NCBI GenBank assembly: GCA_016790175.1 | Contig: JAEUPI010000140.1 | Span: 23,542-87,541, forward strand | Reading direction: 5' to 3' | Source of the DNA: Burkholderiaceae bacterium | Lineage (GTDB): Bacteria > Pseudomonadota > Gammaproteobacteria > Burkholderiales > Burkholderiaceae_C | Length of the DNA stretch: 64,000 nt | Shown here: in pieces, positions 6,090-64,000 of the stretch | Layout of the letters: every line of letters begins with the position of its first letter | Position numbering within the stretch: the stretch's first letter is position 1 | Notes under the pieces: model-generated | What the model was told of the DNA's origin: nothing | The model's database searches: none | The model's input: the letters and a program-made list of their open reading frames with translations, nothing else | Program-made: the position numbers and the translations under genes

Positions 6090-6116
6090 AATTCGCCCGG
6101 GTTTCGAGGTGGGGCG

Positions 6117-41087: not shown

Positions 41088-41097
41088 GGCGGTCGCG

Positions 41098-43202: not shown

Positions 43203-44246
43203 ATGCGCCGACGGCAACTGACGATCGCCGTGGCGGGCCTGCTCGGCAGCCCGTCGGTGTGGTCGCGGCGCAGACCACAACGCGACGCCGATGCGGCTGC
43301 ACCGAGCTATCGCCGGCGCGCCGAGGTGGCCGCCGCGGCTCGGATGTTCGCCCAGGAGCACGAACTCGATCCCGCCTGGATCGAGGAGACGCTGGCCCAG
43401 GCGCGCTACGTGCCCAAGGTGGCACAGCTGATGATGCCGCCGGCCTCGCCGAGCGCACGCAACTGGGCTGCCTACCGATCGCGGTTCATCGAGCGGCAGC
43501 GCATCGAGGCGGGGCGCCAGTGGTGGGAGCGCCATGCCGACGTGCTCGACGAATCGGCCCGTCGCTTCGGCGTGCCGGCCGAAATCATCGTCGGCATCGT
43601 CGGCGTGGAGACCTTCTATGGCCGGCTGACCGGCGGGTTTCGCGTGCTCGACGCACTGGCCACGCTGGCCTTCGACTTCCCCAAGGGCCGCAGCGACCGC
43701 AGTCCGTTCTTTCTCTCGGAGCTTGGCCACTATCTCGCGCTCACGCGTCGCGAGGCCTGGCAGCCCGCGGCGGTGATGGGTTCCTATGCGGGCGCGATGG
43801 GCCTGCCGCAGTTCATGCCGAGCAGCCTGCGCAACTATGGTGTCGACCTCGACGACGACGGCCGTGTCGATCTGTTCGCCAGCGCCGCCGACGTGGCAGC
43901 CAGCGTCGCCTACTACCTCGACGAGCATGGCTGGCAGCACGGCATGCCGACGCACTTCGCCGTGGAAGCGCCGGCCGATAGGGTCGATCGGGCCACGCTG
44001 CTCGTGCCCGACATCGTGCCGAGCTTCTCGGCACAGGAGATGCAAGAACACGGCGCGCGTCTGTCCGAGGCCGGGCGCGCCCACGACGACGCGCTGGCGC
44101 TGATCGAACTGCGCAACGGCGACTCGCCGCCGAGCCACGTGGCCGGCACGCGCAACTTCTACGCCATCACGCGGTACAACGCGTCGAGCTACTACGCCAT
44201 GGCCGTCATCGAACTCGGCGCGGCGGTCGCAGCAGCACGAGCCTAG
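43203..44246 (+). CDS. mltB: Lytic murein transglycosylase B
   Basis: A 347-residue MltB-type (GH103) enzyme cutting the glycan strands of peptidoglycan with formation of 1,6-anhydro-MurNAc. The catalytic glutamate is about E136 in GIVGVETFYGRLTGGFRVLD. The substrate motif MGSYAGAMGLPQFMPSSLRN and the NFYAITRYNASSYYAMAV tail are conserved. The N-terminus (RRRQLTIAVAGLLGSPSVWS) resembles a twin-arginine or Sec signal, but I see no lipobox. It joins MoxR-DUF58-TgpA in one direction and shares its stop-codon region (CTAG) with the convergent transglutaminase gene. Confidence 0.92.
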   Translation: MRRRQLTIAVAGLLGSPSVWSRRRPQRDADAAAPSYRRRAEVAAAARMFAQEHELDPAWIEETLAQARYVPKVAQLMMPPASPSARNWAAYRSRFIERQRIEAGRQWWERHADVLDESARRFGVPAEIIVGIVGVETFYGRLTGGFRVLDALATLAFDFPKGRSDRSPFFLSELGHYLALTRREAWQPAAVMGSYAGAMGLPQFMPSSLRNYGVDLDDDGRVDLFASAADVAASVAYYLDEHGWQHGMPTHFAVEAPADRVDRATLLVPDIVPSFSAQEMQEHGARLSEAGRAHDDALALIELRNGDSPPSHVAGTRNFYAITRYNASSYYAMAVIELGAAVAAARA

Positions 44247-45136
44247 TCCTGAACGCCAAGCGGCGACACCGTCACGGCCACCGTCGGTCGCGCCGTCGAG
44301 CCGCCCCGGATGACGCCGCGCAGCGGTGCCACGTCGGCGTAGTCGCGGCCCCAGGCCAGCGTCACATGATCGGCACCGGCCACCACATTGTTGGTCGGAT
44401 CCAGGTCGACCCAGCCTTCGCGCGGACACCACACGGCCACCCAGGCATGCGAGGCGTCGGCCCCGACCAGCCGCGGTTGACCCGGCGGCGGCTGCGTCAG
44501 CAGGTAGCCGCTGACATAGCGTGCCGCCAGCCCCAACGTGCGCAACACGGCGATCATCACATGCGCGAAATCCTGGCAGACGCCGCGCCGCAGGCCAAGC
44601 GCGACCAGCGCGTCGGTGGCCACATCGGTGGCCGCGCTCTGGTACGCGAATTCGCCGTGCACCTTGTGCATCAGGGCGCGGGCCGCGTCGATCAGCGGAC
44701 GGTTCGGCGCGAAGAGCTCGCCGGCGAATTCGGCAAACGCCGGTGCACGCGGTGCGAACGGCGAGCCGAGCGCGAATTCGCAGGCCTCGGGCATCACCGC
44801 GCCGGCACGGTAGCGCAGCGCCGCAGCCACCTGCTCCCACGGCAGGCCCGGGCCGACCGGCGCCGGCGGGCCCATGTCAGCAACGAAGCTCGACACCACC
44901 TGCAGTTGCTCGTGCACGGCGGCATGGCTGAAGGTGTGACGCCAGTTGCCGAAGACGTCGAGGCCGGCGTCAATACCGGTTTCGCCGCCGTCGGGCGCCG
45001 GCAGGACCTGGAGCCGCCAATCACGCACCGACTGCCGGGCCGTGTCGCGCGGCCGCAAATGCGCCAGGTGGTGCGCCAGCAGCACCGGTGCACCGTAGGC
45101 ATAGTGGGTCTCGTGCTGAACCTGCAGTGTGGCCAT
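44243..45136 (-). CDS. Transglutaminase-like family protein (copy A)
   Basis: A 297-residue cytosolic transglutaminase-fold protein with the N-terminal beta domain LQVQHETHYAYGAPV (bacterial transglutaminase N-region). The core has C187 in RRGVCQDFAHVMIAVL, the His in GADASHAWVAVW and the Asp in DLDPTNN. It is likely a peptidase or amide-forming enzyme acting on peptides rather than a protein cross-linker. I start at ATG 45136; a GTG at 45145 would overlap the upstream stop (GTGA) and is also plausible. It is the last gene of the eight-gene reverse cluster and has a paralog at 53689-54645. Confidence 0.9.
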   Translation of the reverse strand: MATLQVQHETHYAYGAPVLLAHHLAHLRPRDTARQSVRDWRLQVLPAPDGGETGIDAGLDVFGNWRHTFSHAAVHEQLQVVSSFVADMGPPAPVGPGLPWEQVAAALRYRAGAVMPEACEFALGSPFAPRAPAFAEFAGELFAPNRPLIDAARALMHKVHGEFAYQSAATDVATDALVALGLRRGVCQDFAHVMIAVLRTLGLAARYVSGYLLTQPPPGQPRLVGADASHAWVAVWCPREGWVDLDPTNNVVAGADHVTLAWGRDYADVAPLRGVIRGGSTARPTVAVTVSPLGVQD

Positions 45137-45141
45137 CGTCG

Positions 45142-47751
45142 TCACTGCCACACGCTGTGGTCGCTCACGTGCACGAACAGGCGGCGGCCGATCGCATCGG
45201 CCAGCGTGCGCACGCCGTCCACGCAACCGTGCAGCAGGCGAACGAGTTCGGTCGGTACGCCGTCCGCGTCCAGCGCGGCGCAGGCCTCCAGGCTCCACAG
45301 CTCGGGCGCCGGGGCGGAGGCGATCATCTCGTCGGCCCAGGCCGCATCGTGCCGCGCGAGCTTGCGCAGACGCTCACGCATCGTGCGCGAGACCCAGGCG
45401 AGCGAACGCGGGTTGTCGGTGTCGAACACCAGCAGGTGCAGCAGCGGCATCGGTTCGCGCCGGGCCTGGAATCGGGCCCGGTAGGTGATCAGGCTGTCGG
45501 CCAGCGACAGCAGCAGCGCGAAGCCTTCGTCGCTCTCGTGCAGTCGCAGTTCCAGTCCCCGGGCGAGCGCATGGCACAAGGTGTCGAGCCGCTCGATCTG
45601 TCGTCCCACCGACTGCAAGCGCCAGCCGTCGTCGCGCACCATGCGGTCGGCCTGCGCGCCGGTTTCCGCGCTCAGATGCGTGGACGTGCGTCCCAGCAGA
45701 CCGAGCGCGTCGGCCACCGGCGCCACGCCGCCTTCGCCGCCGGCCGCCAGCACCGCGGCCATGTGCTGCTCGAAATGGTTGTCCAGGTCCTGGATCAGCC
45801 GCCAGTGGTCGGGCGACAGCCGCTCGCGCAGCGCCTCGGCGCAGGTGACCACGGCGCGCAGGTTGAAGCCCACGCTCGTGCAGCCGGCCGACGCCGGCAA
45901 TGCATGCACCAGCGCCCGCTCGAACACGCGCAGACTCTGCATGGGCGACGGCGTGCCCTCGGGCACCAGGCCATGCCAGGCCGCCAGCTCGCCGAGCAGC
46001 ACGCGCAGCGGCTCGCCGGCCGAGCGCAGCGACTCCAGCGTCAGGCGCGCCAACGAGACCACGAATTCCGAACGCTCGGTATAGCGGCCGAGCCAGAACA
46101 GGTTCTCGGCGGCGCGACTCGTCACCGTGCGCTGCTGGGCCTGCAGGTCACCGGCCGACAGGGGCGCGCGCAGCAAGGACGCCGCGTTGACATCACCACC
46201 GGCGATGACCCAGGTGTCCGCGCTTGCGCTGCCATGCTGCATCGACAGCCAGGGGTCGAGCAGCCGATCGCGGCGCGCGGCCACGCGCGCCATGCCGCCA
46301 GGCAGGACCTGCCAACCGCCTCGGCCGTCGGCCAGCGCGAACACCCGCAACACGGCAGGCCGCGGCTCGACGGCGCCGCCCTCCCAGGCCGGGGTTTCCG
46401 AGGGCCGCACGCGGGCCTGCAAGGTATAGGCCGCCGGCTCGGCATCGATGCGGCCTGCCAGCGCGGCACGTTGCACCGGATCGAGGTAGGCGGCAACCAC
46501 GGCTTGCACGCCGGCCTCGCCGCCCGGCTGGGGAAAGGTCGGTGCGACGACGAAGTCGGCCAGCCGCGTGCGTTGGGCCTGCCACACCGAATCCTCGCCG
46601 CACCACCAGTGCGTGGACGCGGGCAGCAGCAGCTCCTCGCCCAGCAGGTGCTCGGCCACCCCGGGCCAGAACGCGGCAAGACCCGGGCTTTCCAAGACGC
46701 CGGAGCCCGGCGCATTGGCCAGCACCAGCTGGCCGGCGCGCAGCGCCTGCAGCAGCCCCGGCACGCCGAGCGCCGAATCGGCCCGCAGCTCCAGCGGATC
46801 GAGCCATTCGTCGTCGACCCGCCGCAGCACCACATGCACGCGCTCGAGGCCCTGCATGGTCTTCAGGAACAGCTGGCGATCGCGCACGGTCAGGTCGCCC
46901 GCCTCGACCAACGTGAGGCCGAGATAACGCGCAAGGAACACCTGCTCGAAATAGGTTTCGTGCAGCGGGCCCGGCGTGAGCAGCACGATGCGGGCTCCCT
47001 CGCCCGCCGGACTCAGCGCACGCAGGTCGTCGAGCCAGCGCTGGAACGATGCGCCGACCCGCTGCACCCGCAACGCGGCGAAAGCCTCGTGCATCTCCTG
47101 CGCCACGATGAGGCGGTTTTCCAGCAGGTAGCCCAGGCCCGAGGGCGCCTGGAGCCGTTGGGCCAGCACCCACCAGCGCCCCTCGGGCCCTCGCGCGAGG
47201 TCAAACGCGGCCACGTGCAGGTACACGCCGCCGGGCGGCACCAGGCTGTGCATCGGGCGCAGGTACTGCGGATGGGCGAACACCAGCGAGGGCGGCAGCA
47301 CGGCCTCGCGCAGCAATGTCTGCGCCCCGTAGATGTCGGCCAGCGTCGCGTTGAACATGCGGGCCCGTTGCGCCACACCGGCTTCGATGGCCGGCCATTC
47401 GTCGGCCGACAGCAGGAACGGCAGCGGCTGCAGCGGCCAGGCATGTACGGCATCGGTACCGGCGCCGTGCACGTGATAGGTCGCGCCGTCCTCGCGCACG
47501 CGGCGCTGCACGCGCGCGGCGCGCGAGGCGATGTCGGCCGCGTCGACGGTGCCGTCGGGCTGCAGGGCCTCGAAGAATTGCTGCCACATGCGAACCACCG
47601 GTTCCAGCGGGGCCGCCGGCTCGGCGAGCCGGCCACGCAGCTCGTCGAACCGCCCGTTGGACGCCGGCCCGAGGGCACGCGACAACGCCAGGTCCGGAGG
47701 CGGCTCGGCGGTCGGATCGTCGTCGGTCGAGGCCGTCATGCTTGCCATCAT
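45142..47751 (-). CDS. Circularly permuted ATP-grasp / alpha-E fusion protein (copy A)
   Basis: An 869-residue fusion. Residues about 40-530 align by motif with the stand-alone permuted ATP-grasp of this cluster (APSGLGYLLENR; VLLTPGPLHETYFEQVFLAR; VVLRRVDDEWLDPLEL). Residues about 545-869 are an alpha-E domain (SRAAENLFWLGRYTERSEF). The Lys/Gly-rich loop KEVHGAGGYG of the stand-alone protein is not found at the matching place, so ATP binding may be altered or lost. ATP-grasp/alpha-E proteins are predicted amide-bond-forming systems; substrate unknown. The gene sits 48 bases after the DUF2126-A stop and overlaps or abuts transglutaminase A. Confidence 0.88.
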   Translation of the reverse strand: MMASMTASTDDDPTAEPPPDLALSRALGPASNGRFDELRGRLAEPAAPLEPVVRMWQQFFEALQPDGTVDAADIASRAARVQRRVREDGATYHVHGAGTDAVHAWPLQPLPFLLSADEWPAIEAGVAQRARMFNATLADIYGAQTLLREAVLPPSLVFAHPQYLRPMHSLVPPGGVYLHVAAFDLARGPEGRWWVLAQRLQAPSGLGYLLENRLIVAQEMHEAFAALRVQRVGASFQRWLDDLRALSPAGEGARIVLLTPGPLHETYFEQVFLARYLGLTLVEAGDLTVRDRQLFLKTMQGLERVHVVLRRVDDEWLDPLELRADSALGVPGLLQALRAGQLVLANAPGSGVLESPGLAAFWPGVAEHLLGEELLLPASTHWWCGEDSVWQAQRTRLADFVVAPTFPQPGGEAGVQAVVAAYLDPVQRAALAGRIDAEPAAYTLQARVRPSETPAWEGGAVEPRPAVLRVFALADGRGGWQVLPGGMARVAARRDRLLDPWLSMQHGSASADTWVIAGGDVNAASLLRAPLSAGDLQAQQRTVTSRAAENLFWLGRYTERSEFVVSLARLTLESLRSAGEPLRVLLGELAAWHGLVPEGTPSPMQSLRVFERALVHALPASAGCTSVGFNLRAVVTCAEALRERLSPDHWRLIQDLDNHFEQHMAAVLAAGGEGGVAPVADALGLLGRTSTHLSAETGAQADRMVRDDGWRLQSVGRQIERLDTLCHALARGLELRLHESDEGFALLLSLADSLITYRARFQARREPMPLLHLLVFDTDNPRSLAWVSRTMRERLRKLARHDAAWADEMIASAPAPELWSLEACAALDADGVPTELVRLLHGCVDGVRTLADAIGRRLFVHVSDHSVWQ

Positions 47752-47799
47752 GCCTGCAACCGGCCGCGGCCGTCCGCACGCACCGTCCCCGCCAATGTG

Positions 47800-50700
47800 T
47801 TATCCGCGGCGCAGATCGAGCGTGAACGGGAACTCCAGGCTGCGCTCGGGCATCGGCAACAGATTGCCGCCCGGCACGATGCCCGGCGTGTGGTTCAGCG
47901 CGAAGAAGCGCGCGAGCCGCCGGCTCTCGGCTTCATAGGCATTGACCGGGAACGTGTCGTGGCTGCGGCCGCCCGGATGCGACACGTGGTACTGGCAACC
48001 GCCGAGCGAGCGCTGCATCCAGCGATCCACCAGGTCGAAGGTCAGCGGCGCATGCACGCCGATCGTCGGATGCAGCGCCGACGGCGGCTGCCAGGCGCGA
48101 TAGCGCACGCCGGCCACGAACTCGCCGGCGCGGCCGGTGGGTTGCAGTGTGGCGACGCGGCCGTTGACGGTGACCACATGCCGCGGTTCGACGAGACCGC
48201 TGACGCGCAACTCCAGTCGCTCGAGCGAGGAATCGACATAACGCACTGTCGTGCCGACCGCACCCTCCTCGCCCATCACATGCCACGGCTCCAGCGCATG
48301 GCGCAGCGTGAAATGCACGCCGCGCGCGTTGACCTCGCCGATCTTGGGGAAGCGGAACTCGAAATGCGGCGCGAACCAGGCGGCCTCGAAGGCGTGGCCG
48401 GCGCGGCGCATCTCGTCGATCACGTCCTCGAAATCCATCCACACGAAGCTGGGCAGCAGGAAGCGGTCGTGCAGCTCGGTGTCCCAGCGCACCAGGCTCG
48501 CCCGGTAGGGCTCGCGCCAGAAGCGTGCCACCAGCGCGCGCAGCAGCAACTGTTGCGCGATGCTCATGCGTGCATGCGGCGGCATCTCGAAGGCCCGCAA
48601 CTCCAGCAGCCCGAGCCGGCCGGTGGCGCTGTCGGGCGAGTACAGCTTGTCGATGCAGAACTCGCTGCGGTGCGTGTTGCCGGTCACGTCGACCAGGATG
48701 TTGCGCAGCGTCCGGTCCACCAGCCACGGCGGCAATTCGCGACCGTAGACGCCCTTGTTGCGCTCGATCTCGGCCAGCGCGATCTCGAGCTCGTAGAGCT
48801 GGTCGTTGCGTGCCTCGTCGACACGTGGCGCCTGGCTCGTCGGGCCGATGAACAGCCCGCTGAAAAGATAGCTCAGCGACGGATGGTTGTGCCAGTAGGC
48901 GAGCAGGCTGGCCAGCAGATCGGGCCGACGCAGGAACGGGCTGTCGGCCGCCGTCGCACCCCCGAGCACGAAATGGTTGCCGCCGCCCGTGCCGGTGTGC
49001 CGGCCGTCGAGCATGAACTTCTCGGTCGACAGGCGCGAGCGCCAAGCCGCGTCGTACAGGAACTCGGTGTGCTCGACGAGCTCGGCCCAGTCGTGCGCCG
49101 GGTGGATGTTCACCTCGATCACGCCGGGGTCGGGCGTGACCTGCAGCAGCTTCAGGCGCGGATCACGCGGCGGCGGATAGCCCTCGAGCACGATCTTCAC
49201 GCCGAGTTCGGCCGCCGTGGCCTCGACGGCGGCGAGCAATTGCAGATAGTCCTCCAGCAGCTGCAGCGGCGGCATGAACACATACAGCACGCCGCTCGCC
49301 TCGCCCTGCGCCTCGGCCTTCGGACCGTTTGCGCGGCGCGGATCGCGGGCTTCCACCACCACGGCCGTGCGTGTGATCCAGTAGGCCGACTCGAAACGCT
49401 GCGGCATCTTTGCCAGCGTGGTGACGTCCAGCGGCTTTCCCGGGCCGACGCGCCCTGCCGTGCCGCCCACCCCGGTGGACAGCCCCGGCTGCGCCTGCAT
49501 CGCGACGGTGCCGCCCTCGGCAAAGCCGCCACCCACCGCATGCGGCGCGTACTGGCCGCGGATGCGCGCCGCGCTCGGCAACGCGCCGCGCGGCGCGAAC
49601 GGATCGGCCTCCACCTGGTACGGATAGTCGCCGGCACTGACCCAGGGCAGGGAATCGAGCGGCAGGCGGTAGCCCATCGGCGAATCGCCAGGGAACAGAT
49701 ACATGCGCTCGTCGCGGAAGAACCAAGGCCCGGTGACCCAGGCCGGACCCGACAGGGCGACGCCACGCTCGCGCCGGAGCGGCAAGGCATAGCCCACCAC
49801 GGCACTCAGGCCCTGCTCGAACACCCGGCGCAGGCGCAGGCGCTCGAGTTCGTCGTCGAGCCGCGCGTCGAACGGGTCCACGTTCACCGGCAGCCGGCGC
49901 TCGCGCCACAGGAAGTACCAGGTGTCTTCGTAGCCCGGCTGGACATGTTCGTCGGTCAGCCCCAGCCGGCGCGTCAGCGTTTGGATGAATCTTCTCGCGT
50001 CGTCGCTCGTGTAGGCATGACGCTCGCGCTCGTCGGCGAAGAGCGACGGATCGTGCCAGCAGGCTTCGCCGTCGGCGCGCCAGTACACGCTGAGCGCCCA
50101 GCGCGGCAGCTGCTCGCCGGGATACCACTTGCCCTGCCCGTAGTGCAGGAAGCCGCCCTGGCCATAGTGCGCGCGCAACCGCTGCACCAGATCCTGCGCA
50201 AGGATGCGCTTCGTGGGGCCCAGGGCATCGGTGTTCCATTCCGCACCGTCGCGGTCGTCCACGCTGACGAAGGTCGGCTCGCCGCCCATCGTCAGGCGCA
50301 CGTCGCCGGCATTCAACTCGGCATCGAGGCGCTCGCCCAGCGCCAGCATGGCCTGCCACTGGCCGTCGGTATAGGGCTGCGTGACGCGCGGTGACTCCCA
50401 CACGCGCGTGATCTGCATCGTGTGGCCGAACGTGACCTCGGACTCGTCCACCTCGCCGGATACCGGCGCCGCACTGGAAGGCTGGGGTGTGCAGGCCAGC
50501 GGAACATGGCCTTCGCCCGCCAGCAAACCGCTGGTGGGGTCGAGCCCGATCCAGCCGGCGCCCGGCAGGTAGACCTCGCACCAGGCATGCAGGTCGGTGA
50601 AGTCGACTTCGGTGCCGCTCGGTCCGTCGAGCGCTTTCACATCGGGTTTGAGTTGAATCAGGTAACCTGACACGAAGCGCGCCGCCAGACCCAGGTGTCG

Positions 50701-51273
50701 CAGCGTCTGCACCAGCAGCCAACCGGTGTCGCGGCACGAGCCGGCGGCCCGGTCCAGCGTCTGCTCCGGCGTCTGCACACCCGGCTCCATGCGGATCAGG
50801 TAGCGAACCTCCTTCTGCAGCCGCTGGTTCAGGGCGACCAGGAAATCGATCGTGCGTTGCTCGTGGCGGTCGACCGACGCGAGGAAGGCGGCAAATCGCT
50901 CCGTGGCCGCCTCTCGCGCGAGGTACGGCGCCAGCTCGTCCAGCGTGGCGTCGTCGTAGCGGAACGGAAAGCGCTCGGCTGCCGGCTCGAGGAAGAAGTC
51001 GAACGGGTTGTAGACCGACATCTCGGCCACCAGATCGACGGTGACCTTGAACTCGGTGGTCTTCTCCGGAAAGACGAGCCGCGCAAGGTAGTTCGAGAAC
51101 GGGTCCTGCTGCCAGTTGATGAAATGGCCGCCCGGCTCGACCTTCAGCGAGTAGCTCAGGATCCGGGTGCGGCAGTGCGGCGCCGGCCGCAGCCGCACGA
51201 TCTGCGGCGACAAACCGACACGACGGTCGTATCGGTAGTGGGTGATGTGGTTCAGGGCGACATGAATGCTCAT
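47800..51273 (-). CDS. DUF2126 protein with N-terminal transglutaminase-like domain (copy A)
   Basis: A 1157-residue protein. Residues 1-290 form a transglutaminase unit ([17 protein letters not shown] start, C180 in [12 protein letters not shown], His and Asp in [20 protein letters not shown]). DUF2126 follows from about 300 to the C-terminus ([54 protein letters not shown]). A Gly-rich variable linker lies at about 571-611. No signal peptide. The start ATG overlaps the alpha-E stop (ATGA). The DUF2126 domain is of unknown function; its conserved His/Asp/Glu clusters suggest an enzyme. Paralog at 57306-60842. Confidence 0.9.
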   Translation of the reverse strand: [1157 protein letters not shown]

Positions 51274-52226
51274 GCCGGCACCAGAAAGTCGCGGCTGATT
51301 CCCGCACCGATGTCGTTCACGCGGTCGAGAAACTGGGTGAGATAGGCATGCAGGCCGGTGGCAAGGATCTCGTCGATGCGGCCGAACTGCAGATCCGAGC
51401 GCAGCCGCCCTGCCCGGCGCTGGGTTTCGCTGCTCTGCTCGTTGGCCACCAGGCGCAGATTCTCCACCACGCCGTTCATGCAGCTGGCCAGCGAACGCGG
51501 CATGTCGGGCCGCAGGATCAGCAGCTCGGCCACACGTTCGGGCACGATCACGTTGCGGTAGACCTTGCGATAGATCTCGAAGCCCGACACCGAGCGCAGG
51601 ATCGCCGACCAGTGATAGAAGTCGATCTCCGGCGGATCGTCGGCACGGTGTCGGCCGAAGTAGTCGCCGGCGAGCGCATGGAACTTCACGTCGAGCAGAC
51701 GCGCGGTGTTGTCGGCGCGCTCCAGGAAGGTGCCGATGCGGATGAAATGCAGCGACTCGTCGTGCAGCATCGTGCCGACCGTCACGCCGCGCGACAGGTG
51801 CGAGCGGAACTTCACCCATTCGAACACCGTGCCCGGGTCGCGCTCGAAGTGGCCTTCGCGCAGCATGCGGTTGAACTCGAGCCAGGTCTGGTTCGTCGTT
51901 TCCCACAGTTCGGTCGTGATGGTGCCGCGCACGGCACGGGCGTTCTCGCGCGCCGCCTTCAGGCACGACACGATGCTCGACGAATGCGTCTCGTCGCCGA
52001 CCATGAAGGTCATGACCCGCCGCGCGTCGATCTTGCCGTGCCGCTTCTCGTAGGCCTCGGTCAGCTCGCTGATGCCGAGCATGCCGCGCCAGCCCTGCAG
52101 GGCGCGGTCGGCCGACTGCGGCAGCAGCGACGTCTGGTAGTTCACGTCGAGCATGCGCGCGGTGTTCTCGGCCCGCTCCATGTATCGAGCCATCCAGAAC
52201 AGGTGATCGGCGGTGCGCGAGAGCAT
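51270..52226 (-). CDS. Stand-alone alpha-E domain protein (DUF403)
   Basis: A 318-residue all-helical protein opening MLSRTADHLFWMARYMERAE, the alpha-E signature, with EHxH/ERxxR-like charged helices throughout. Alpha-E proteins accompany permuted ATP-grasp proteins almost invariably and may form a complex with them; no activity is established. It starts 2 bases after the ATP-grasp stop and overlaps DUF2126-A by 4 bases. Confidence 0.9.
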   Translation of the reverse strand: MLSRTADHLFWMARYMERAENTARMLDVNYQTSLLPQSADRALQGWRGMLGISELTEAYEKRHGKIDARRVMTFMVGDETHSSSIVSCLKAARENARAVRGTITTELWETTNQTWLEFNRMLREGHFERDPGTVFEWVKFRSHLSRGVTVGTMLHDESLHFIRIGTFLERADNTARLLDVKFHALAGDYFGRHRADDPPEIDFYHWSAILRSVSGFEIYRKVYRNVIVPERVAELLILRPDMPRSLASCMNGVVENLRLVANEQSSETQRRAGRLRSDLQFGRIDEILATGLHAYLTQFLDRVNDIGAGISRDFLVPA

Positions 52227-52228
52227 GG

Positions 52229-53665
52229 TCAGACCTCCAGCACCCAGGTGTCCTTGGTGCCACCGCCCTGCGACGAATTCACCACCAGCGAGCCCTCTTT
52301 CAGCGCCACCCGCGTCAGGCCGCCAGGCACCATCTGCACCGACTGACCCGAGAGCACGAAGGGCCGCAGGTCGATGTGGCGCGGCGCGATGCCCGATTCC
52401 ACATAGGTCGGACAGGTCGACAGCGCGAGCGTGGGCTGCGCGATGTAGTTCGAGGGCTTCGCGATCAACGCGGCGCGAAACGCCTCGATCTCGGCCTTGC
52501 TCGCCGCCGGCCCGACCAGCATGCCGTAGCCGCCGGCGCCGTGCACCTCCTTGACGACCAGCTCGCCCAGGTGGTCGAGCACGTACTTCAGGTCGTCCGT
52601 CTCGCGGCAGCGGTAGGTGGGCACGTTCTGCAGGATCGGCTTCTCACCGAGGTAGAACTCCACCATCTTCGGCACGTAGGGGTAGATCGACTTGTCGTCG
52701 GCCACGCCGGTGCCGATGGCGTTGCACAAGGTGATGTTGCCGCGGCGATAGGCATCGAGCAGTCCGGCGCAGCCGAGCGTGCTGTCGGGCCGGAAAGCCT
52801 GCGGATCGAGGAAGTCGTCGTCGACGCGGCGGTAGATCACGTCGACCCGGCGCGGCCCCTGTGTCGTGCGCATGTAGACGAAGCCGTCCTTGACGAACAG
52901 ATCCTGGCCCTCGACGAGTTCGACGCCCATCTGCTGCGCCAGGAACGCGTGCTCGAAGTACGCGCTGTTGTACATGCCCGGCGTGAGCACCACCACGGTG
53001 GGCTCGTTCACGGCGGCCGGTGCCACCGCACGCAGCGTCTCGAGCAGCAGGTCGGGGTAGTGCGCCACCGGTTCGACCCGGTTGTCGGCGAACAGGTCGG
53101 GGAACAGCCGCATCATCATCTTGCGGTTCTCGAGCATGTAGCTCACGCCGCTGGGCACGCGCAGGTTGTCCTCCAGCACGTAGTACTCGCCGCTGCCATC
53201 CGCGTTGCCGGCGCGCACGATGTCGATGCCGCTGATGTGCGAGTAGATGTTGCCCGGCACGTTCACGCCCAGCATCTCCTTGCGGAACTGCGCGTTGTTG
53301 AGCACCTGGTCCTTGGGCACGACGCCGGCCTTGAGGATTTCCTGCCCGTGGTACACGTCGTGGATGAAGCGGTTGAGCGCCGTCACGCGCTGGCGCAGGC
53401 CTTCTTCCATGCGCGCCCATTCGGCGCCGGGGATCACCCGCGGCAGCAGGTCGAAGGGGATGAGGCGCTCGGTGCCGGCGCCGTCCTCGTCCTTGGCGCC
53501 GTAGACCGCGAAGGTGATGCCCACGCGCCGGAAGATCATCTCGGCCTCGTGGCGGCGGCTCGTCATCACGTCGCCACTCTGCTGCTTGAGCCACGCGTCG
53601 TAGGTGCGGTAGTGCTCGCGCACCGCCTGGCTGGCGGTGTGCATTTCGTCGAAGGGGGCCTTCAT
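52229..53665 (-). CDS. Stand-alone circularly permuted type 2 ATP-grasp protein (DUF404/DUF407)
   Basis: A 478-residue predicted ATP-dependent amide ligase. Motifs: EDNLRVPSGVSYMLENRKMM, VVVLTPGMYNSAYFEHAFLA, VDVIYRRVDDDFLDP, NAIGTGVADDKSIYPYVPKM. The nucleotide-binding loop KEVHGAGGYG is at 372-381, and SVQMVPGGLTRVA lies near the C-terminus. All expected ATP-grasp motifs are present, unlike in the two fusions. ATG 53665 follows AGGAG and lies 23 bases from the transglutaminase-B stop. It and the alpha-E gene form the central pair of the cluster. Confidence 0.92.
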   Translation of the reverse strand: MKAPFDEMHTASQAVREHYRTYDAWLKQQSGDVMTSRRHEAEMIFRRVGITFAVYGAKDEDGAGTERLIPFDLLPRVIPGAEWARMEEGLRQRVTALNRFIHDVYHGQEILKAGVVPKDQVLNNAQFRKEMLGVNVPGNIYSHISGIDIVRAGNADGSGEYYVLEDNLRVPSGVSYMLENRKMMMRLFPDLFADNRVEPVAHYPDLLLETLRAVAPAAVNEPTVVVLTPGMYNSAYFEHAFLAQQMGVELVEGQDLFVKDGFVYMRTTQGPRRVDVIYRRVDDDFLDPQAFRPDSTLGCAGLLDAYRRGNITLCNAIGTGVADDKSIYPYVPKMVEFYLGEKPILQNVPTYRCRETDDLKYVLDHLGELVVKEVHGAGGYGMLVGPAASKAEIEAFRAALIAKPSNYIAQPTLALSTCPTYVESGIAPRHIDLRPFVLSGQSVQMVPGGLTRVALKEGSLVVNSSQGGGTKDTWVLEV

Positions 53666-53688
53666 GGTCTTGTCCGCTCCTGTCGCGG

Positions 53689-54645
53689 TCACTGTAGCAA
53701 GCCGCGTTCCGGCTTCGTTTCCGGCGGGATGACGCGTGTGCGCACGCCCACCGTCAGCGTGTGGCTGCCGCCGCCGCGGATCACGCCGCGCAGCGGCGTC
53801 ACGTCGCCGAAGTCGCGGCCCACGGCCACGCGCACGTGGCCGGTGCCGGGGATGATGTCGTTGGTGGGGTCCAGGTCCAGCCAGCCGGCGTCGGCACCCT
53901 CGCCCGGCACGCCGGGGGTGCCGGGGCACCACACCTGCACCCAGGCGTGCGAGGCGTCGGCGCCCTGCATCTCGCGGCCTTGCCCGTCGTCGCCCTCGGG
54001 CGCGCGCGTGAGCAGGTAGCCGCTCACGTAACGCGCGGGCAGGCCGTGCATGCGCAGCGCGCCGGCCATCAGGTGCGCAAAGTCCTGGCAGACGCCGCGT
54101 TTGTGCTCGAACACGAGCGCCAGCGGGGTTTCGATCTCGGTGCTCTGGCTCTGGTACCTGAAGTCGGCGTGGATGCGGTGCATCAGCTCGATGGCCGCGG
54201 CCGCCACGGGGCGTTCCGGCGTGATGCTGGCCGCGCCGTAGCGCCGCAGCTCGGCCAGGCGCGGCACGTAGGGCGAAGGCAGCGCGTGCTGCACCGCCGG
54301 CAGGTAGGGCGCGCCGGCCACGTAGCGCAGGCGCATGGCCAGTTCACCGCAGCGCGGGCCCGCTTCGGGCTGCAGCGCCGCAAAACGCGGCGCCAGCTGC
54401 ACGCGGCTGGCCGCCCTCACCAGCAGCTTCTGGTGCGGCTGCACGAGCGAGAAGTGGCACTGCGTGTTGGCGAAGGCGTCTGCGCTGTCTTCGCGCTGCG
54501 CGGGTGGCGGGTCCAGCGTCAGCTGCCAGCTTTGCACCTGCTGGTGCGCATCGTGCAGCGGCTGCAGGTGCGCCAGGTGGTGGGCCAGCGTCACGGGCGC
54601 TGCGTAGGCGTAGCGGGTTTCGTGGACCACTTCCAACTGCGTCAT
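53689..54645 (-). CDS. Transglutaminase-like family protein (copy B)
   Basis: A 318-residue paralog of the 44243-45136 protein. It has the same N-terminal beta domain (LEVVHETRYAYAAPVTLAHH), C186 in KRGVCQDFAHLMAGAL, His in GADASHAWVQVW and Asp in LDLDPTND. It carries an extra short insertion (APEGDDGQGREMQ) in the loop after GYLLT. The start is ATG 54645 (MTQLEVV); an in-frame upstream ATG would include a hairpin-containing spacer and is unlikely. It is 70 bases downstream of fusion B, the widest gap inside the cluster. Confidence 0.9.
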   Translation of the reverse strand: MTQLEVVHETRYAYAAPVTLAHHLAHLQPLHDAHQQVQSWQLTLDPPPAQREDSADAFANTQCHFSLVQPHQKLLVRAASRVQLAPRFAALQPEAGPRCGELAMRLRYVAGAPYLPAVQHALPSPYVPRLAELRRYGAASITPERPVAAAAIELMHRIHADFRYQSQSTEIETPLALVFEHKRGVCQDFAHLMAGALRMHGLPARYVSGYLLTRAPEGDDGQGREMQGADASHAWVQVWCPGTPGVPGEGADAGWLDLDPTNDIIPGTGHVRVAVGRDFGDVTPLRGVIRGGGSHTLTVGVRTRVIPPETKPERGLLQ

Positions 54646-54647
54646 CT

Positions 54648-54717
54648 GGCCCCCAAGACGCTTCGCGTCGTCCCCCCGCGGGGGAGCGAACGCCTTCGGA
54701 GCGGCCGCGCGGCGTTC
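54648..54717. repeat. Double-hairpin spacer inside the cluster
   Basis: The gap between fusion B and transglutaminase B has two hairpins: GACGC-TTC-GCGTC (54657-54669) and TCCCCC-CGC-GGGGGA (54671-54685). Similar C-run/G-run palindromes recur between genes in Comamonadaceae genomes, from general knowledge. It may be an intergenic repeat, an RNA-processing site or an attenuator. Confidence 0.45.
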
Positions 54718-57295
54718 ATACGCGTTGGTCCATGCCATGGGCGAGCGTGAAGTAGCGCTCGCCGATCTGGTCGGCCAGCAGCGCGGCAGCGCTGCCGAGT
54801 TCCACGCTCAGCATCAGGAGGCGCTCGGCGATCTGCGCTTCACCCGCGCCGCGCAGGTCTTCCAGCGTGAGGCCGGCGCCCACCGGCGGCAGCAGCGCCA
54901 GCAGCGGCTCATGGCTTTCGGCGCTGCCGGGCAGCTTGGAGAGCTCGGTGCGCAGCCGCCTCAGCACGCCGGCGTAGGCGCGCGGGTTGGTGCTGTCCAG
55001 CACCAGCAGGTCGGCGATGGCCAGCAGGTCTTCGTGCCGCTGGTAGCGGGCGCGGAAGGTGATGGTGCTGTCGAAGAGCTCCAGCACCAGCTCCACGCCG
55101 CTCACGGTGGCCAGGGCCTCGTGGCGCAGGAAGAGCTCCAGGCGCAGCGCCAGGCCCTGCAGGCGCTCCAGCAGGCGGCCCACGGTGAGCAGGCGCCAGC
55201 CGTGGTCGCGTGTCATGCGGTCGGTCTGCGCGCCGGTGGCCGCTGCCAGCTGCAGCGCCAGGCGGTCCAGCGGCGCCAGCACCTGCTGCAGCGTGGGCAG
55301 CTCACCCGACGGCACTTCGAGTGCGCGTGTGAAGCTCTCGCCCATGCTGCGCACCAGGCCCCACTGCTCGGGCGACAGGCGCTCGCGCAGGCCCATGGCC
55401 GCACGTTCGAGCGCGCCCAGGTTGTAGGCCACGCTGCCGCCCTTGGCATCGGCCAGGCCGGCCAGCACGGCACGCTCGAAGTTGCGCGCGCTCTGCACGA
55501 GCGTGGGCACACCCAGTGGCGCCAGGCCGGTGCGCACGGCCAGCTGCGAGAGCGCCTGGCGCACCGAGGCCGGCGTGTCGGCGCCGGCATCGGAGATGGC
55601 GTCGATGAGCGCCAGCGTGGCGCGCGCCTGGCGCACCAGCTGCTCGGTGCGCTCGGTGTAGCGGCCGAGCCAGAACAGGTTCTCGCCGGTGCGGCTGCTC
55701 ACGGGGCGGTGGCGGTGCAGCAGGTCGTCGACCTGCAGCCGCTGCGGCAGCATCGTGAAGGCGTCGACCTCGCCCTCGGTGAGCACCCAGGTGTCCAGGC
55801 TGGTGCCGCCGCGCTGCATGCTGATGCTGCTGTCCTCGCGCTGCGCCACGCGTGTCATGCCACCGGGCAGCACGTGCCAGCGGCCTTCACCCTGCGCGAT
55901 GGCGTACACACGCACCAGGGCCGGGCGCGGCGTGACCGCGCCCTCGCCCCAGATGGGTGCACGCGAGAAGCGTTTGCGCTCCTGCACGGTCCAGGCGTCG
56001 GGGTCGTCGTGCACGGCCGCCTCGGTGCGGTCGAAGACCTGCGAGGTGCGCCCGTCGCGCGGGAAGGTGCTGCGCAGCAGCTTGTTGCCGAGATCGGCCT
56101 TCACGTTGGCCCAGGCCGCCGGCTCGCCGCACCACCAGGTGGGCAGCGCGGGCAGCAGCAGGTCCTGCCCGCTGAGTTGCTGCGCGATGGCGGGCAGGAA
56201 ACCCTGGATCGCCGGTGTCTCCAGGAAGGCACTGCCGAGCGCGTTGGCCATCACCACGTGGCCGCTGCGCGCGGCCTGCAGCAGGCCGGGCACACCCAGG
56301 GCGCTGTTGGGGCGCAGTTCGAGCGGATCGCAGTAGTCGTCGTCCAGCCGGCGCAGCAGGCCATGCACCGGCTCCAGGCCCTCCACGGTCTTGAGGAACA
56401 GGCGCTGGTCGCGCACCGTGAGGTCACCGCCTTCCACCAGCGGCAAGCCGAGGTAGCGCGCGAGGTAGGCGTGTTCGAAGTAGGTCTCGCTGTAGGGGCC
56501 GGGCGTGAGCAGCACGATGCGCGGCGTGCTGTTGCCGGCCACCTGCGCGGCGCGTGCTTCCAGCGCGTCGAGCAGCATGCGGTAGCTGCTGGCGATGCGC
56601 TGCGCGCGCAGCTCGCGGAAGGCCTCGGGGAACTGGCGCGCGATGACGAGCCGGTTGTGCAGCACGTAGCCCAGGCCGCTGGGGCCCTGCGTGCGCTGCG
56701 ACACCAGCCACCACCGGCCTTCGGGGCCACGCGCGAGGTCGAAGGCCACGATCATCAGCCGCTGCCCGCCCGCCGGCTGCACACCCAGCATCGGCCGCAG
56801 GAAGCCGGGGTGGCGCAGCATCAGCGCCGGCGGCAGCAGGCCGCGCTGCAGCAGCGTCTGCGGGCCGTAGAGGTCGGCCAGCATGCGTTCGAGCAGCTCG
56901 GCGCGCTGCTGCACGCCGGCTTCGATGGCGGCCCAGTCGGCGGGCTCGATCAGCTGCGGCAGCAGCTGCAGGCTCCACGGGCGCGCGGCCACGCCGCCCT
57001 CGCCGAACACGTTGTGCGTGACACCGTCCAGCCGGATGCGCTGCTCCACCTGTTCCACGCGGCGGTTCAGGTCCTCGGCCATGGTCAGGCCGCCCTGCGG
57101 CTCGGGCAGGCAGCGCGCGAAGGTCTGCCAGGGCGTGCGCAGCGCCCCGCCGGGGTTGCGCAGCTCGTCCCACACGCCGGCCTCGGCCGGCATGGCATGC
57201 GCGGCAAAGGCATGCTCGGCCGCACCCTGCGCCGAGGCGCCGCCCTCGAAGGGCAGCATGCCTTGGCTCTGGGACTGGCTCTGCTGCTGCGTCAT
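54716..57295 (-). CDS. Circularly permuted ATP-grasp / alpha-E fusion protein (copy B)
   Basis: An 859-residue paralog of 45142-47751. The ATP-grasp-like part (about 45-520) has GPSGLGYVLHNRLVIARQF, VLLTPGPYSETYFEHAYLAR and LLRRLDDDYCDPLELR. The alpha-E part (about 535-859) begins SRTGENLFWLGRYTERTEQ. As in copy A, the Lys/Gly-rich KEVHGAGGYG loop is not recognisable. The N-terminus is a Gln/Ser-rich tail (TQQQSQSQSQG). It begins 10 bases after the DUF2126-B stop, so the two are surely cotranscribed. Confidence 0.88.
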   Translation of the reverse strand: MTQQQSQSQSQGMLPFEGGASAQGAAEHAFAAHAMPAEAGVWDELRNPGGALRTPWQTFARCLPEPQGGLTMAEDLNRRVEQVEQRIRLDGVTHNVFGEGGVAARPWSLQLLPQLIEPADWAAIEAGVQQRAELLERMLADLYGPQTLLQRGLLPPALMLRHPGFLRPMLGVQPAGGQRLMIVAFDLARGPEGRWWLVSQRTQGPSGLGYVLHNRLVIARQFPEAFRELRAQRIASSYRMLLDALEARAAQVAGNSTPRIVLLTPGPYSETYFEHAYLARYLGLPLVEGGDLTVRDQRLFLKTVEGLEPVHGLLRRLDDDYCDPLELRPNSALGVPGLLQAARSGHVVMANALGSAFLETPAIQGFLPAIAQQLSGQDLLLPALPTWWCGEPAAWANVKADLGNKLLRSTFPRDGRTSQVFDRTEAAVHDDPDAWTVQERKRFSRAPIWGEGAVTPRPALVRVYAIAQGEGRWHVLPGGMTRVAQREDSSISMQRGGTSLDTWVLTEGEVDAFTMLPQRLQVDDLLHRHRPVSSRTGENLFWLGRYTERTEQLVRQARATLALIDAISDAGADTPASVRQALSQLAVRTGLAPLGVPTLVQSARNFERAVLAGLADAKGGSVAYNLGALERAAMGLRERLSPEQWGLVRSMGESFTRALEVPSGELPTLQQVLAPLDRLALQLAAATGAQTDRMTRDHGWRLLTVGRLLERLQGLALRLELFLRHEALATVSGVELVLELFDSTITFRARYQRHEDLLAIADLLVLDSTNPRAYAGVLRRLRTELSKLPGSAESHEPLLALLPPVGAGLTLEDLRGAGEAQIAERLLMLSVELGSAAALLADQIGERYFTLAHGMDQRV

Positions 57296-57305
57296 GCGGT
57301 GCGGC

Positions 57306-60300
57306 TCAGCGCCTCAGGTCGAGCGTGAAGGGGTGTTCCAGGCTCGGCGCCGCCGGCTTCACGTCGATCTCGCCCGGCGTGTGGCCAAAGCGGAAGAAAC
57401 GCGCCAGGCGGCGGCTTTCGGCTTCGTAGCTGTTGACCGGGAACACGTCGTAGTTGCGGCCGCCCGGGTGCGCCACGTGGTAGCGGCAGCCGCCCAGGCT
57501 GCGGCGCTGCCACCGATCGACCACGTCGAAGGTCAGCGGTGCGTGCACGCCGATGGTGGGGTGCAGCGCCGAAGGCGGCGCCCAGGCGCGGTAGCGCACG
57601 CCGCAGACGAACTCGCCCACGCGCCCGGTGGGCTGCAGCGGCAGCCCGCGGCCGTTGACGGTGAGCACGTGGCGGTTGCCGTTGAGGCCGCTGACCTTCA
57701 GCTCCAGCCGCTCCAGCGATGAGTCCACGTAGCGCACCGTGCCGCCCGGCGCGCCCTCCTCGCCCATCACGTGCCAGGGCTCGAGCGCGTTGCGCAGCGT
57801 GATGTCCAGGCCCTGCACCTGCAGATCACCCACCAGCGGGAAGCGGAAAGAGAAGTGCGGTGCGAACCAGGTGGCGTCGAAGGCGAAGCCGGCCTGTTTC
57901 AGGTCGGCCACCACGTCCTCCATGTCCATCTGCACGAAGGTGGGCAGCATGAAGCGGTCGTGCAGCCCCGTGCCCCAGCGCGTGAGCCGCGTGGCGCCGC
58001 GGCCGCGGTAGGGCTCGCGCCAGAACCAGGCCACCAGCGCCCGCAGCAGCAGCTGCTGCGCCAGGCTCATGCGCGCATGCGGCGGCATCTCGAAGCCGCG
58101 GAACTCCAGCAGGCCCAGGCGGCCGGTGGGGCCGTCGGGCGAGTACAGCTTGTCGATGCTGAACTCGGCGCGGTGGGTGTTGCCGGTGGCGTCGATCAGC
58201 AGGTTGCGCAGCGTGCGGTCCACGAGCCAGGGCGGGCACTGGCCATGAAGGCCGATCTGGCGGTCGATCTCGTTCAGCGCCACCTCGACCTCGTAGACCT
58301 GGTCGTCACGCGCTTCGTCGATGCGGGGGTGCTGGCTGGTGGGGCCGATGAAGAGGCCACTGAACAGGTAGCTCAGCGCCGGATGGTTCTGCCAGTAGGT
58401 GATGAGGCTGGCCAGCAGATCAGGCCGGCGCAGGACGGGGCTGTCGGCCGGTGTGGCGCCGCCGAGCACGAAGTGGTTGCCGCCGCCGGTGCCGGTGTGG
58501 CGGCCGTCGACCATGAACTTCTCGGTGCTCAGGCGGCTTTCGTGGGCGGCCTGGTACAGGAACTCGGTGTGGTCGACGAGTTCGTTCCAGTCGTGCGCGG
58601 GGTGGATGTTGACCTCGATCACACCAGGGTCGGGCGTCACCTGCAGCAGCTTCAGGCGGGGGTCGCGCGGGGGCGGGTAACCCTCGAGCACGATCTTCAT
58701 CTGCAGCTCGGCGGCGGTGGCTTCCACGGCGGCGAGCAGCTCGAGGTAGTCCTCCAGGAAACGCAGCGGCGGCATGAAGACGTAGAGCACACCGCTCTTG
58801 CCGCCATGTTCGCGCTCGGCCTTCGGGCCGTTGCCCCGCTGCGGGTCACGCACCTCCACGCACAGCGCGGTGCGTGTGAGTTCGCCGGCGGATTCGAAGC
58901 GCGCGGGCGCCAGCAGCGGGTTGCGCGGGTGCGGCACTTCGGGGTCGTGTTCGGTGCCCAGCATGCGCGGCTGGCCGGGGCCACCGCCAAAGCCGCCGCC
59001 TTCGCCCACCATGCCGTTGCCGACGTAGCCACCTGAACCACCGTCGGCGCCAAAGCCGTCGTGGTCGAGCCCGGTTTCGCCATGCGGCTCACCGCTGCCC
59101 GGGCCGAAGGCCGTGGCCTGCTGCAGCCGCAGCGCCGCCGCCGAAGGCAGCGCGGGCTTGGGCGCAAACGGGTCGGCAGCCAGCGTCCAGGGCCTTTCGC
59201 CGCTGGCGGCCCAGGGCTGCGAATCGAGCGGCAGGCGGTAGCCCATCGGCGAATCGCCGGGCATCAGGTACAGGCGTTCGTCGCGCAGGAACCAGGGCCC
59301 GGTGACCCAGGCCGGGCCCGCGGTGCCCACGCGCCATTCGCGCTTCAGCGGCAGCAGGTAGCCCACCACGGCCGAGAGGCCCTGCTGGAAGACACGGCGC
59401 AGGCGCGCCCGCTCCAGTTCGTCTTCCAGCCGCGAGTCGAAGGGATCGACGTTGCCCGGCAGCCGCCGCTCGCGCCAGAGGTAGTACCAGGTGTCCTCGT
59501 GGCCGGGCTGCACGAAGCGCGGATCCAGCCCCAGCCGGCGCGTGAGCGTGCCGATGAAGGTCTGCGCGTCGGCGGCGGTGTAGCGGTGGGTGTCGCGTTC
59601 GTCGGCGAACAGGCTCGGGTCGTGCCAGCAGGGCTGGCCGTCGGCGCGCCAGCAGATGCTCAGCGCCCAGCGCGGCAGCTGCTCGCCCGGGTACCACTTG
59701 CCCTGGCCGAAGTGCAGGAAACCGCCGGCGCCGTACTTGGCGCGCAGCTTGTGCACGAGCTCGGTGGCCAGGCCGCGCTTGGTGGGGCCGAGTGCGTCGG
59801 TGTTCCACTCGGCGGCGTCGCGGTCGTTCACGGCCACGAAGGTGGGCTCGCCGCCCATGGTCAGGCGCACGTCCTGCTGCGTGAGCTGGGCATCCACCGC
59901 ATGGCCCAACTCGACGATCTTCGACCACTGCTGGTCCGTGTACGGCAGCGTCACGCGCGGCGATTCGTGGATGCGCGTGACCTGCATGTGGTGCGCGAAC
60001 TGCACCTCGCATTCGTCGACAGCGCCGCTCACCGGTGCGGCACTGCTGGGCTCGGGCGTGCAGGCCACGGGGATGTGGCCTTCGCCGGCCAGCAGGCCGC
60101 TGGTGGGGTCGAAGCCGATCCAGCCGGCGCCCGGCAGGTAGACCTCGCACCAGGCGTGCAGGTCGGTGAAGTCGACTTCGGTGCCGCTGGGGCCGTCGAG
60201 CGCCTTCACGTCGGGCTTGAGCTGGATCAGGTAGCCCGAGACGAAGCGCGCCGCCAGCCCCAGGTGGCGCAGCGTCTGCACCAGCAGCCAGGCGGTATCG

Positions 60301-60842
60301 CGGCACGAACCGCTGCCGCGCGCCAGCGTCTGCTCCGGCGTCTGCACGCCCGGCTCCATGCGGATCAGGTAGCCGATCTCCTTCTGCAGCCGCTGGTTCA
60401 GGTGCACCAGGAAGTCGATGCTGCGCTGGCGCTTGCGCCCGATGCTGGCGACGAAGGCCGCAAAGCGCGGCGTGGCCTCGCACCGCGCCAGGTAGGGCGC
60501 GAGGTCGTGTGCGAGATCGGCCCCGTAGTCGAACGGAAACTGCTCGGCCTGCGGTTCGAGGAAGAAGTCGAACGGGTTGAGCACCGACATCTCGGCCACC
60601 AGGTCGACCGTGACCTTGAATTCGCGCGTCGGTTCGGGAAAGACCAGGCGCGCCAGGTGGTTGGCGAAGGCATCCTGCTGCCAGTTGATGAAGTGCTGCG
60701 CCGGTTCGATGCGCAGGCTGTAGCCGAGGATGCGGGTGCGCGAATGCGGGGCCGGCCGCAGGCGCACGATCTGCGGCGACAGCGTCACGCGCCGGTCGTA
60801 GCGGTAGTGCGTGACGTGGTTCAGCGCGACGTGGATGGCCAA
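57306..60842 (-). CDS. DUF2126 protein with N-terminal transglutaminase-like domain (copy B)
   Basis: A 1178-residue paralog of 47800-51273. The transglutaminase unit has C180 in [12 protein letters not shown] and the same His/Asp motif ([20 protein letters not shown]). The DUF2126 segments [20 protein letters not shown] and [14 protein letters not shown] are retained. The variable linker (about 580-640) is expanded and strongly Gly-rich. The start is TTG 60842: it gives the family N-terminus [18 protein letters not shown] and follows AAAAAGGAGCCGCCC, while no ATG fits. It lies 22 bases after comEC. Confidence 0.88.
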   Translation of the reverse strand: [1178 protein letters not shown]

Positions 60843-63375: not shown

Positions 63376-63439
63376 CGCCTGCAGTGTAGGATGCGCCGCC
63401 CCAATTTCCACGGGCGCGCGCGCCGCGCCGACGAACGCC

Positions 63440-63901: not shown

Positions 63902-64000
63902 GCGTGCCGGCCCTGCCCGGCCGGATCGGGCCGCGCGCCTGGCTGGCGCTGGTGGCGCTCGGTTGTGTCGCGGCCCTGGCCGCGGCGCTGGTGTCGCAGC
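63898..64000 (+). CDS. Start of a membrane protein, probably disulfide bond formation protein B (cut by window edge)
   Basis: GTG 63898 overlaps the ridA stop. The 34 codons present read MSVPALPGRIGPRAWLALV followed by ALGCVAALAAALVSQ, a first transmembrane segment like that of DsbB, which oxidises DsbA with ubiquinone. The diagnostic CPWC motif lies beyond the window, so the identity is provisional. Confidence 0.5.
   Translation, partial: MSVPALPGRIGPRAWLALVALGCVAALAAALVSQ

Follow-up and report, generated by a model that had tools for sequence, protein, structure and literature searches.

We analysed a 64,000-base window of a metagenome-assembled genome (MAG) of a Burkholderiaceae bacterium, which carries a cluster of eight consecutive genes (A to H, from left to right) at positions 44243-60842 on the reverse strand. 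The MAG (G000) comprises 3.93 Mb in 283 contigs and is listed as 82.3% complete and 0.56% contaminated; window base 64000 is the end of its contig C224. The eight genes, as read by the initial annotation, were borne out by open reading frames (ORFs) and by Pfam matches well over the cut-off for all eight proteins, none of which matched any NCBIfam family. Throughout, TG stands for a transglutaminase core with the bacterial N-terminal domain, CPATG (CP in gene orders) for a circularly permuted ATP-grasp, AE for alpha-E, CPAE for a CPATG-alphaE fusion and DUF for a TG-DUF2126 fusion.

In the direction of transcription, the cluster starts with H, a TG-DUF2126 fusion (57306-60842; 1178 aa from a TTG start), followed by G, an apparently degenerate CPATG fused to alpha-E (54716-57295; 859 aa), both recognised by Pfam, and F, a stand-alone TG-like protein (53689-54645; 318 aa, ORF open to 54738; PF01841 and PF08379). 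Next come E, a stand-alone CPATG with its active-site residues kept (52229-53665; 478 aa; PF14403), and D, a stand-alone alpha-E protein (51270-52226; 318 aa; PF04168 at 334.7 bits). The series of H, G and F is then repeated by C, a TG-DUF2126 fusion (47800-51273; 1157 aa; PF09899, PF01841 and PF08379), B, again an apparently degenerate CPATG fused to alpha-E (45142-47751; 869 aa; PF14403, PF04174 and PF04168), and A, a stand-alone TG-like protein (44243-45136; 297 aa; PF01841 and PF08379). The four part types described initially were all found by the Pfam profile search, while the TG domain on the DUF2126 genes had been overlooked: both carry Bact_transglu_N and Transglut_core at the N-terminus, giving four transglutaminase-fold proteins instead of two. 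The tight spacing of the genes was also confirmed, with C and D overlapping by 4 bases and the remaining gaps spanning 2 to 70 bases. No precursor-peptide gene or exporter was recognised at the cluster, where small ORFs were not searched systematically.

Gene orders and DUF2126 copies in relatives

We compared the cluster with 128 loci carrying a DUF2126 match, drawn from L006-L125 and L135-L174, a set from which loci of the MAG itself, duplicates (L161-L169), the split loci L136/L137 of genome G213 and loci without DUF2126, such as L175, were excluded. The family has a conserved locus, RidA-ComEC-[operon]-TgpA, in which the five operon genes stand in one of two orders, CP-AE-DUF-CPAE-TG (type I) or DUF-CPAE-TG-CP-AE (type II), each occurring singly in relatives. 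Type I was seen with ComEC ahead at 12 loci and without ComEC in view at 15 (one locus with an extra TG in each group), and type II with ComEC ahead at 10 loci (one with an extra TG), without ComEC in view at 3 and cut after CP at 2. The comparison did not favour the doubled arrangement, since the eight-gene order was present at none of the 128 loci. The earlier proposal of two parallel modules or one assembly line on a single 16.6-kb transcript was not supported, each half corresponding to one end of an ordinary five-gene operon. Among the genus-mates, G212 and G213 have the type I order, with the G213 locus divided between two contigs.

Several further arrangements were seen in the relatives. 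The locus of genus-mate G210 (L175, G210:C1:30000-49999) reads ComEC-CP-AE-CPAE-TG with no DUF2126 match, indicating that the fused CPATG-alphaE can persist without DUF2126, and L006 carries an additional short DUF2126-like match (258 aa, 39%). Across the 128 loci, a ComEC gene within 400 bases lay on the same strand as CPATG 36 times, on the same strand as DUF2126 12 times and opposite DUF2126 36 times, and 66 loci had no ComEC in view.

We also surveyed DUF2126 copies in overlapping samples of order, family and genus genomes. In the order sample 50 of 150 genomes were positive; the two family samples gave 39 positives among 60 and 251 among 399, and the genus sample 3 among 6. Up to two candidates per genome were scored in the survey of 399. 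Among the matches listed for its 251 positives, two full-length DUF2126 genes were found in the window's MAG only, and no other genome had them in the 150-order, 60-family and 6-genus samples either. Twelve other genomes of the 399 showed two DUF2126 matches among those listed, and in eleven of the twelve these were partial matches jointly covering about one gene; in G206 and G337 the two partial matches have about 200 and about 77 profile positions in common, respectively, which leaves room for a second partial copy. The twelfth, G354, has a full copy together with a divergent second protein, as has G199 of the 60-family sample (G354:C71:7361-9361, a 739-aa frame; G199:C38, locus L138, positions 5351-7594, a 748-aa frame), and no relatives of the window's other proteins were found on the G199 stretch.

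Origin of the doubled cluster

The two halves have an identical order of parts, and C and H are 76.5% identical, as would fit a tandem duplication in which a module was copied within the lineage and then diverged, the picture implied by the initial annotation. However, B and G (47.5%) and A and F (47.4%) are no closer to each other than to many single-operon genomes. In trees of 41 DUF2126 and 41 fused CPATG-alphaE proteins, chosen as subsets of the 127 and 116 collected, C grouped with genus-mate G212 (support 100/97) and B with genus-mates G212 and G210 (100/100), while H (100/100) and G (100/99) fell within clades of Rubrivivax-like MAG loci and G346, which are type II. The copies were thus neither mutual closest relatives nor co-inherited, and no genus-mate carries two full DUF2126 copies. 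Rejected by these trees, a tandem duplication would require horizontal exchange of every gene in one half, and we consider it highly improbable. The remaining genes divide in the same way: on the type I side, A has its best match in genus-mate G213 (74%) and D is 94% identical to G213, and on the type II side, F has its best matches in the Rubrivivax MAG locus L075, G346 and L101.

The two affinities meet inside gene E, which we compared segment by segment with 71 relatives by nucleotide identity. For bases 1-492 the nearest relative was the type II genome G346 (80.7%), with G213 in 48th place (74.8%); for bases 813-1437 G213 came first (88.9%) and G346 46th. E is therefore a mosaic with a type II-like 5′ third and a type I-like 3′ part, and its reading frame is intact. 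The switch probably lies within a 68-base stretch at 53106-53173, where the window and contig C189 of this MAG agree in every base; identity between the two is 74.6% before this stretch and 85.8% after it. The mean identity of the stretch across relatives is 93.8%.

The composition of the window changes as well. The right 10.8 kb (53.17-64 kb) has a GC content of 0.727, against 0.695 in the left half of the cluster and 0.666-0.706 in 22 of the 23 stretches sampled from the MAG (the remaining one reads 0.000 and is evidently masked). Likewise, the tetranucleotide distance of the right 10 kb was 6.23-6.49, compared with 4.85 for the left half of the cluster, 3.30-4.88 for 16 native 10-kb pieces and 3.81 for the piece of C189 with the genus-type ComEC. 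The right 10.8 kb is thus foreign to the MAG in composition, although the distances at the same locus in other genomes spread from 4.36 to 8.82 (4.68 and 5.06 in the genus-mate locus L135), so that between close genera the tetranucleotide measure is no more than suggestive.

Upstream of H we identified a ComEC/Rec2-type competence gene (60865-63450, reverse strand; PF03772) and a RidA/YjgF-like gene (63443-63901, forward strand, start codon not set; PF14588 and PF01042), each of them a second copy in the MAG. ComEC ends 22 bases upstream of H, so that a transcription unit does not clearly begin at H. Only the window's MAG had two full ComEC copies among 60 family genomes, of which four had fragments as extra or sole matches and five had none. 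The window's ComEC is 57-59% identical to those of G213, G212 and C189 and 63% to those of the type II loci L080 and L101, indicating that it is clearly not of the genus type, while its sequence does not clearly assign it to type II. The window's RidA matched that of L080 best (83%), and the genus rows and C189 ranked only 17 to 48 of 52. At the other end of the cluster, the flank is typical of the genus, with a TgpA-like transglutaminase gene (40999-43149, forward strand; PF11992 and PF01841) 78% identical to G213 and a MoxR gene 95% identical to it.

Contig C189 (L132:1-3777) carries a genus-type RidA (90% to G213), a genus-type ComEC (69% to G213) and the start of a CPATG gene cut by the contig end. 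This CPATG was closest to G213 up to base 492 (85.6%, rank 1) and second closest after it (87.4%, rank 2). The lost lead of G213 hints that C189 and the type II parent crossed reciprocally, yet the tail of C189 is not specifically type II, and such a crossing is at most suggested by the sequence. For a gyrB/parE-family gene on C189 the MAG gave no second match, while a gyrB/parE pair normally gives two; we rejected the lone gene as proof that C189 is native, because it indicates incompleteness of the MAG and decides neither way.

Taken together, the change of affinity within E, the foreign composition on the right, the additional copies of RidA and ComEC and the occurrence of both parental orders elsewhere favour an assembly chimera, and the doubled cluster very probably arose when two orthologous loci were joined within a conserved gene close to a contig end. 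A type II genome would have contributed the RidA/ComEC side, H, G, F and the first third of E, and the sequence would cross at about 53106-53173 into a type I genome from the same genus as the MAG, which would have supplied the rest of E, the genes D, C, B and A, and TgpA. The single CP-AE pair between the doubled sets would follow from each parent having one CPATG and one alpha-E gene. We infer that the join arose in the computer rather than in the cell, and the doubled cluster is probably not a real feature; a doubled set within a single genome was not confirmed.

Several observations weigh against a chimera. The listed contamination of the MAG is just 0.56%, and no genome of the type II donor was found, the best DNA match being 78% (399 genomes, 71 of them unscored). 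Conservation of the 68-base stretch is intrinsic: no difference is seen there in 34 of 2485 other pairs, L123 matches it over its full length, and G213 has an exact run of 68 bases in common, displaced by 3 bases. Over bases 560-813 of E the two sides are nearly tied, with the type II locus L075 at 90.1% and G213 at 89.7%, so the junction could lie further left. By bit score, the window's ComEC matched the type I locus L049 first (60%), L080 second and C189 third. Moreover, bases 561-813 of the C189 CPATG differ by 14% from the window, so that C189 was rejected as the exact counterpart that would complete the type I operon of the window; since C189 is unlike the type I half past the junction, the account requires either a third source or a second switch. 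Finally, a recent natural double crossover would equally leave DNA of foreign composition and could place the switch at a conserved site.

The last point belongs to a natural recombinant, in which type II DNA recombined with the resident type I operon inside CPATG, so that the eight genes would be a real operon whose two DUF2126 ligase modules have a single CPATG and a single alpha-E in common. Both parental operons are found beside ComEC or TgpA, the frame of E is intact, the junction falls in a conserved stretch, and the foreign composition fits a recent transfer. Against this, the genus-type RidA-ComEC-CPATG start persists on C189, whereas allelic replacement would have removed it, the arrangement is in no other examined genome, and the foreign part extends to the contig end. 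We therefore judge natural recombination unlikely. It is quite unlikely that the contig is correct in a fuller sense, namely that recombination at the ComEC-TgpA locus created an operon of 16 kb, perhaps driven by sigma-54. Its two diverged transglutaminase-DUF2126 ligases would each have a catalytically dead ATP-grasp-alphaE partner and would use the one working ATP-grasp and the one alpha-E in common; if so, the dead-ATP-grasp fusions would specify which DUF2126 module the common ligase serves. The chimera, for its part, removes a probably false "doubled assembly line", and the combination of duplicate ComEC/RidA, a composition break and an affinity switch inside one gene offers a simple check for such joins.

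Conserved residues and known relatives of the operon

We further studied whether the parts of the operon keep the residues of active enzymes, using the roles of ATP-grasp and glutamine synthetase (GS)-like residues as generally known. E matched PDB 3n6x, a putative glutathionylspermidine synthase which we take to be from Methylobacillus flagellatus, end to end at 741 bits, and stand-alone CPATG proteins kept E165, N167, R169, S175, K372 and a glycine-rich loop in 84 of 84 cases. The fused proteins also align with 3n6x (385 bits) but do not have the E-D-N and S residues that stand-alone CPATG proteins conserve: equivalents of E165, N167, R169, S175 and K325 were present in 0 of 116, G378 in 5% and G381 in 4%, while K372 was kept in 66 of 116 and D282, D283 and D287 in 116 of 116. 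This loss of canonical residues predicts that the fused ATP-grasp is dead or altered; judged by these presumed residue roles, the fusion does not read as an active ATP-grasp; this DUF2126-linked ATP-grasp-alphaE protein resembles a conserved pseudoenzyme. The fused ATP-grasp domains (45142-47751 and 54716-57295) keep motifs of their own, such as a W-W-C-G-E that is invariant in 24 aligned proteins.

Stand-alone TG proteins carried the Cys (120 of 124), His (124 of 124) and Asp (123 of 124) of the catalytic triad. In 127 DUF2126 proteins, the linked TG triad together with E743, N745, H790, R891, E893, E913 and R915 was invariant or nearly so. The residues that we take to be catalytic thus appear to be kept in the stand-alone CPATG, TG and DUF2126 proteins. 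The model of alpha-E was confident and all-helical (predicted local distance difference test, pLDDT, 86.7), with no PDB structure match at E <= 0.001 and no sequence match. The model of the DUF2126 protein was poor (pLDDT 64.8) and its sole structure matches at E <= 0.001 were to the N-terminal TG domain (3isr, TgpA), which was likewise all that a profile search recognised.

Iyer et al. (2009) reportedly predicted amidoligase neighbourhoods of CPATG, alpha-E and transglutaminase, for which we know of no product. The initial annotation had assigned the cluster to these amidoligase or peptide-modification neighbourhoods, and the assignment held, as supported by the Pfam content and by excerpts of PMC3597751, PMC6376114 and PMC5666114. 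The five-gene operon is a member of this predicted kind, with the same domain families in one tight operon that recurs in related loci. Unlike these neighbourhoods, the window joins two gene orders, its fused ATP-grasp is without the canonical residues and a sigma-54-like site lies upstream; the lost residues and the sigma-54-like sites ahead of DUF2126 and CPATG genes may be new details.

Two described operons resemble it. The Anbu operon (Anbu, TG, alpha-E and CPATG; P. putida PP_2685-2688) has TG, alpha-E and CPATG in common, but the window is without an Anbu subunit and has the DUF2126-TG and CPATG-alphaE fusions. In B. cenocepacia, I35_5080-83 comprises DUF404/407, DUF403 and transglutaminase genes and a "large protein containing transglutaminase-like domain", as described in the excerpted part of PMC5491218. 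The order of these genes, CP-AE-TG-DUF, is that of the Burkholderia loci L073 and L077 (and of L076, with no CP in view), and in L073 and L077 the CPATG is about 62% and the alpha-E 35-36% identical to window E and D. DUF2126 itself was not mentioned in the literature that our limited search covered. As a separate candidate, a defence system was rejected: five of the eight proteins were tested and none matched PADLOC.

Upstream sites and predicted function

Using the generally known patterns of sigma-54 and NtrC sites, we searched by consensus within 200 bases upstream of each gene, where the background for a sigma-54-like site is 0.0033 per 200-base window. One such site, TGGCGCGGGGATTGCA, was identified at 60892-60907 on the reverse strand, its first base 65 bases upstream of H. 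In the relatives, whose rows are related and hence not independent, sigma-54-like sites lay upstream of DUF2126 in 34 of 126 cases and of CPATG in 11 of 86 (43 of 128 loci altogether), and upstream of alpha-E (0/77), fused CPATG-alphaE (0/115), TG (0/109) and ComEC (0/60) in none. Among the 114 loci with a CPATG-alphaE fusion, they were found at 25 of 36 divergent, 5 of 27 type I and 8 of 36 other loci. NtrC-like palindromes were seen upstream of CP in 14 of 86 cases (about 1.3 expected), of DUF in 9 of 126 (about 1.9) and of TG in 6 of 109 (about 1.7); none was present upstream of H, and we did not rely on these counts.

Published data support a nitrogen regulation of the relatives of the operon. 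According to an excerpt of PMC5491218, B. cenocepacia H111 I35_5080-83 (BCAM1233-1236) are listed as common targets of sigma-54 and NtrC, which the sigma-54-like sites would match; on sigma-54 itself the evidence from P. putida, given below, is contrary. In the accessible passages of PMC7801951, PP_2686-2688 of the P. putida Anbu operon rose 11- to 37-fold under nitrogen limitation and PP_2685 1.1- to 4.8-fold, with NtrB/NtrC as a putative regulator. PP2685-2687 are also listed as raised under nitrogen limitation in an excerpt of PMC3325844, and domains of this kind co-vary with urea metabolism in marine metagenomes in one of PMC3597751. PMC12239564 (rlo operon) and PMC10274813 (Caulobacter NtrC) were set aside, as the parts consulted concern other loci.

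We tentatively propose that the five-gene operon may encode a system that both makes and cleaves amide bonds and that is switched on when nitrogen is limiting, in Burkholderiales by way of NtrC/sigma-54. In this scheme the ATP-dependent ligases would be the stand-alone CPATG and DUF2126, both forming amide bonds on a peptide or small-molecule substrate under nitrogen limitation; the transglutaminase domains would act as Cys-His-Asp amidases or peptidases that trim or release the product, and the ATP-grasp-alphaE fusion as a non-catalytic or altered partner, an adaptor. Three results count against this proposal. The poor model did not confirm a GS-like fold of DUF2126 (pLDDT 64.8), and sigma-54-like sites were found in none of the 15 type II loci and in just 5 of the 27 of type I. 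In addition, PP_2686-2688 rise 14- to 20-fold in an rpoN mutant too, as an excerpt of PMC7801951 reports, which speaks against strict sigma-54 dependence in the P. putida relative and weakens the functional proposal.

Instead of synthesising a metabolite or peptide, the operon might mark substrates for degradation, the role suggested for Anbu operons. CPATG, alpha-E and TG are the other members of the nitrogen-limitation-induced Anbu operons (excerpts of PMC6376114, PMC5666114 and PMC7801951), but no protease subunit, Anbu or other proteasome-family, is encoded among the window's eight genes, and the sole proteasome-family match of the MAG lies on a different contig, in surroundings where relatives of the eight proteins were not found. 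We regard degradation tagging as possible but less likely than not. The operon is widespread, and its pseudoenzyme-like fusion points to the stand-alone CPATG and DUF2126 as the candidate ligases to assay. The proteasome-family match itself is a 242-aa frame at G000:C3:14175-14678 (L126; PF00227, just 22 bits), which we presume may be a bacterial proteasome homologue rather than HslV.

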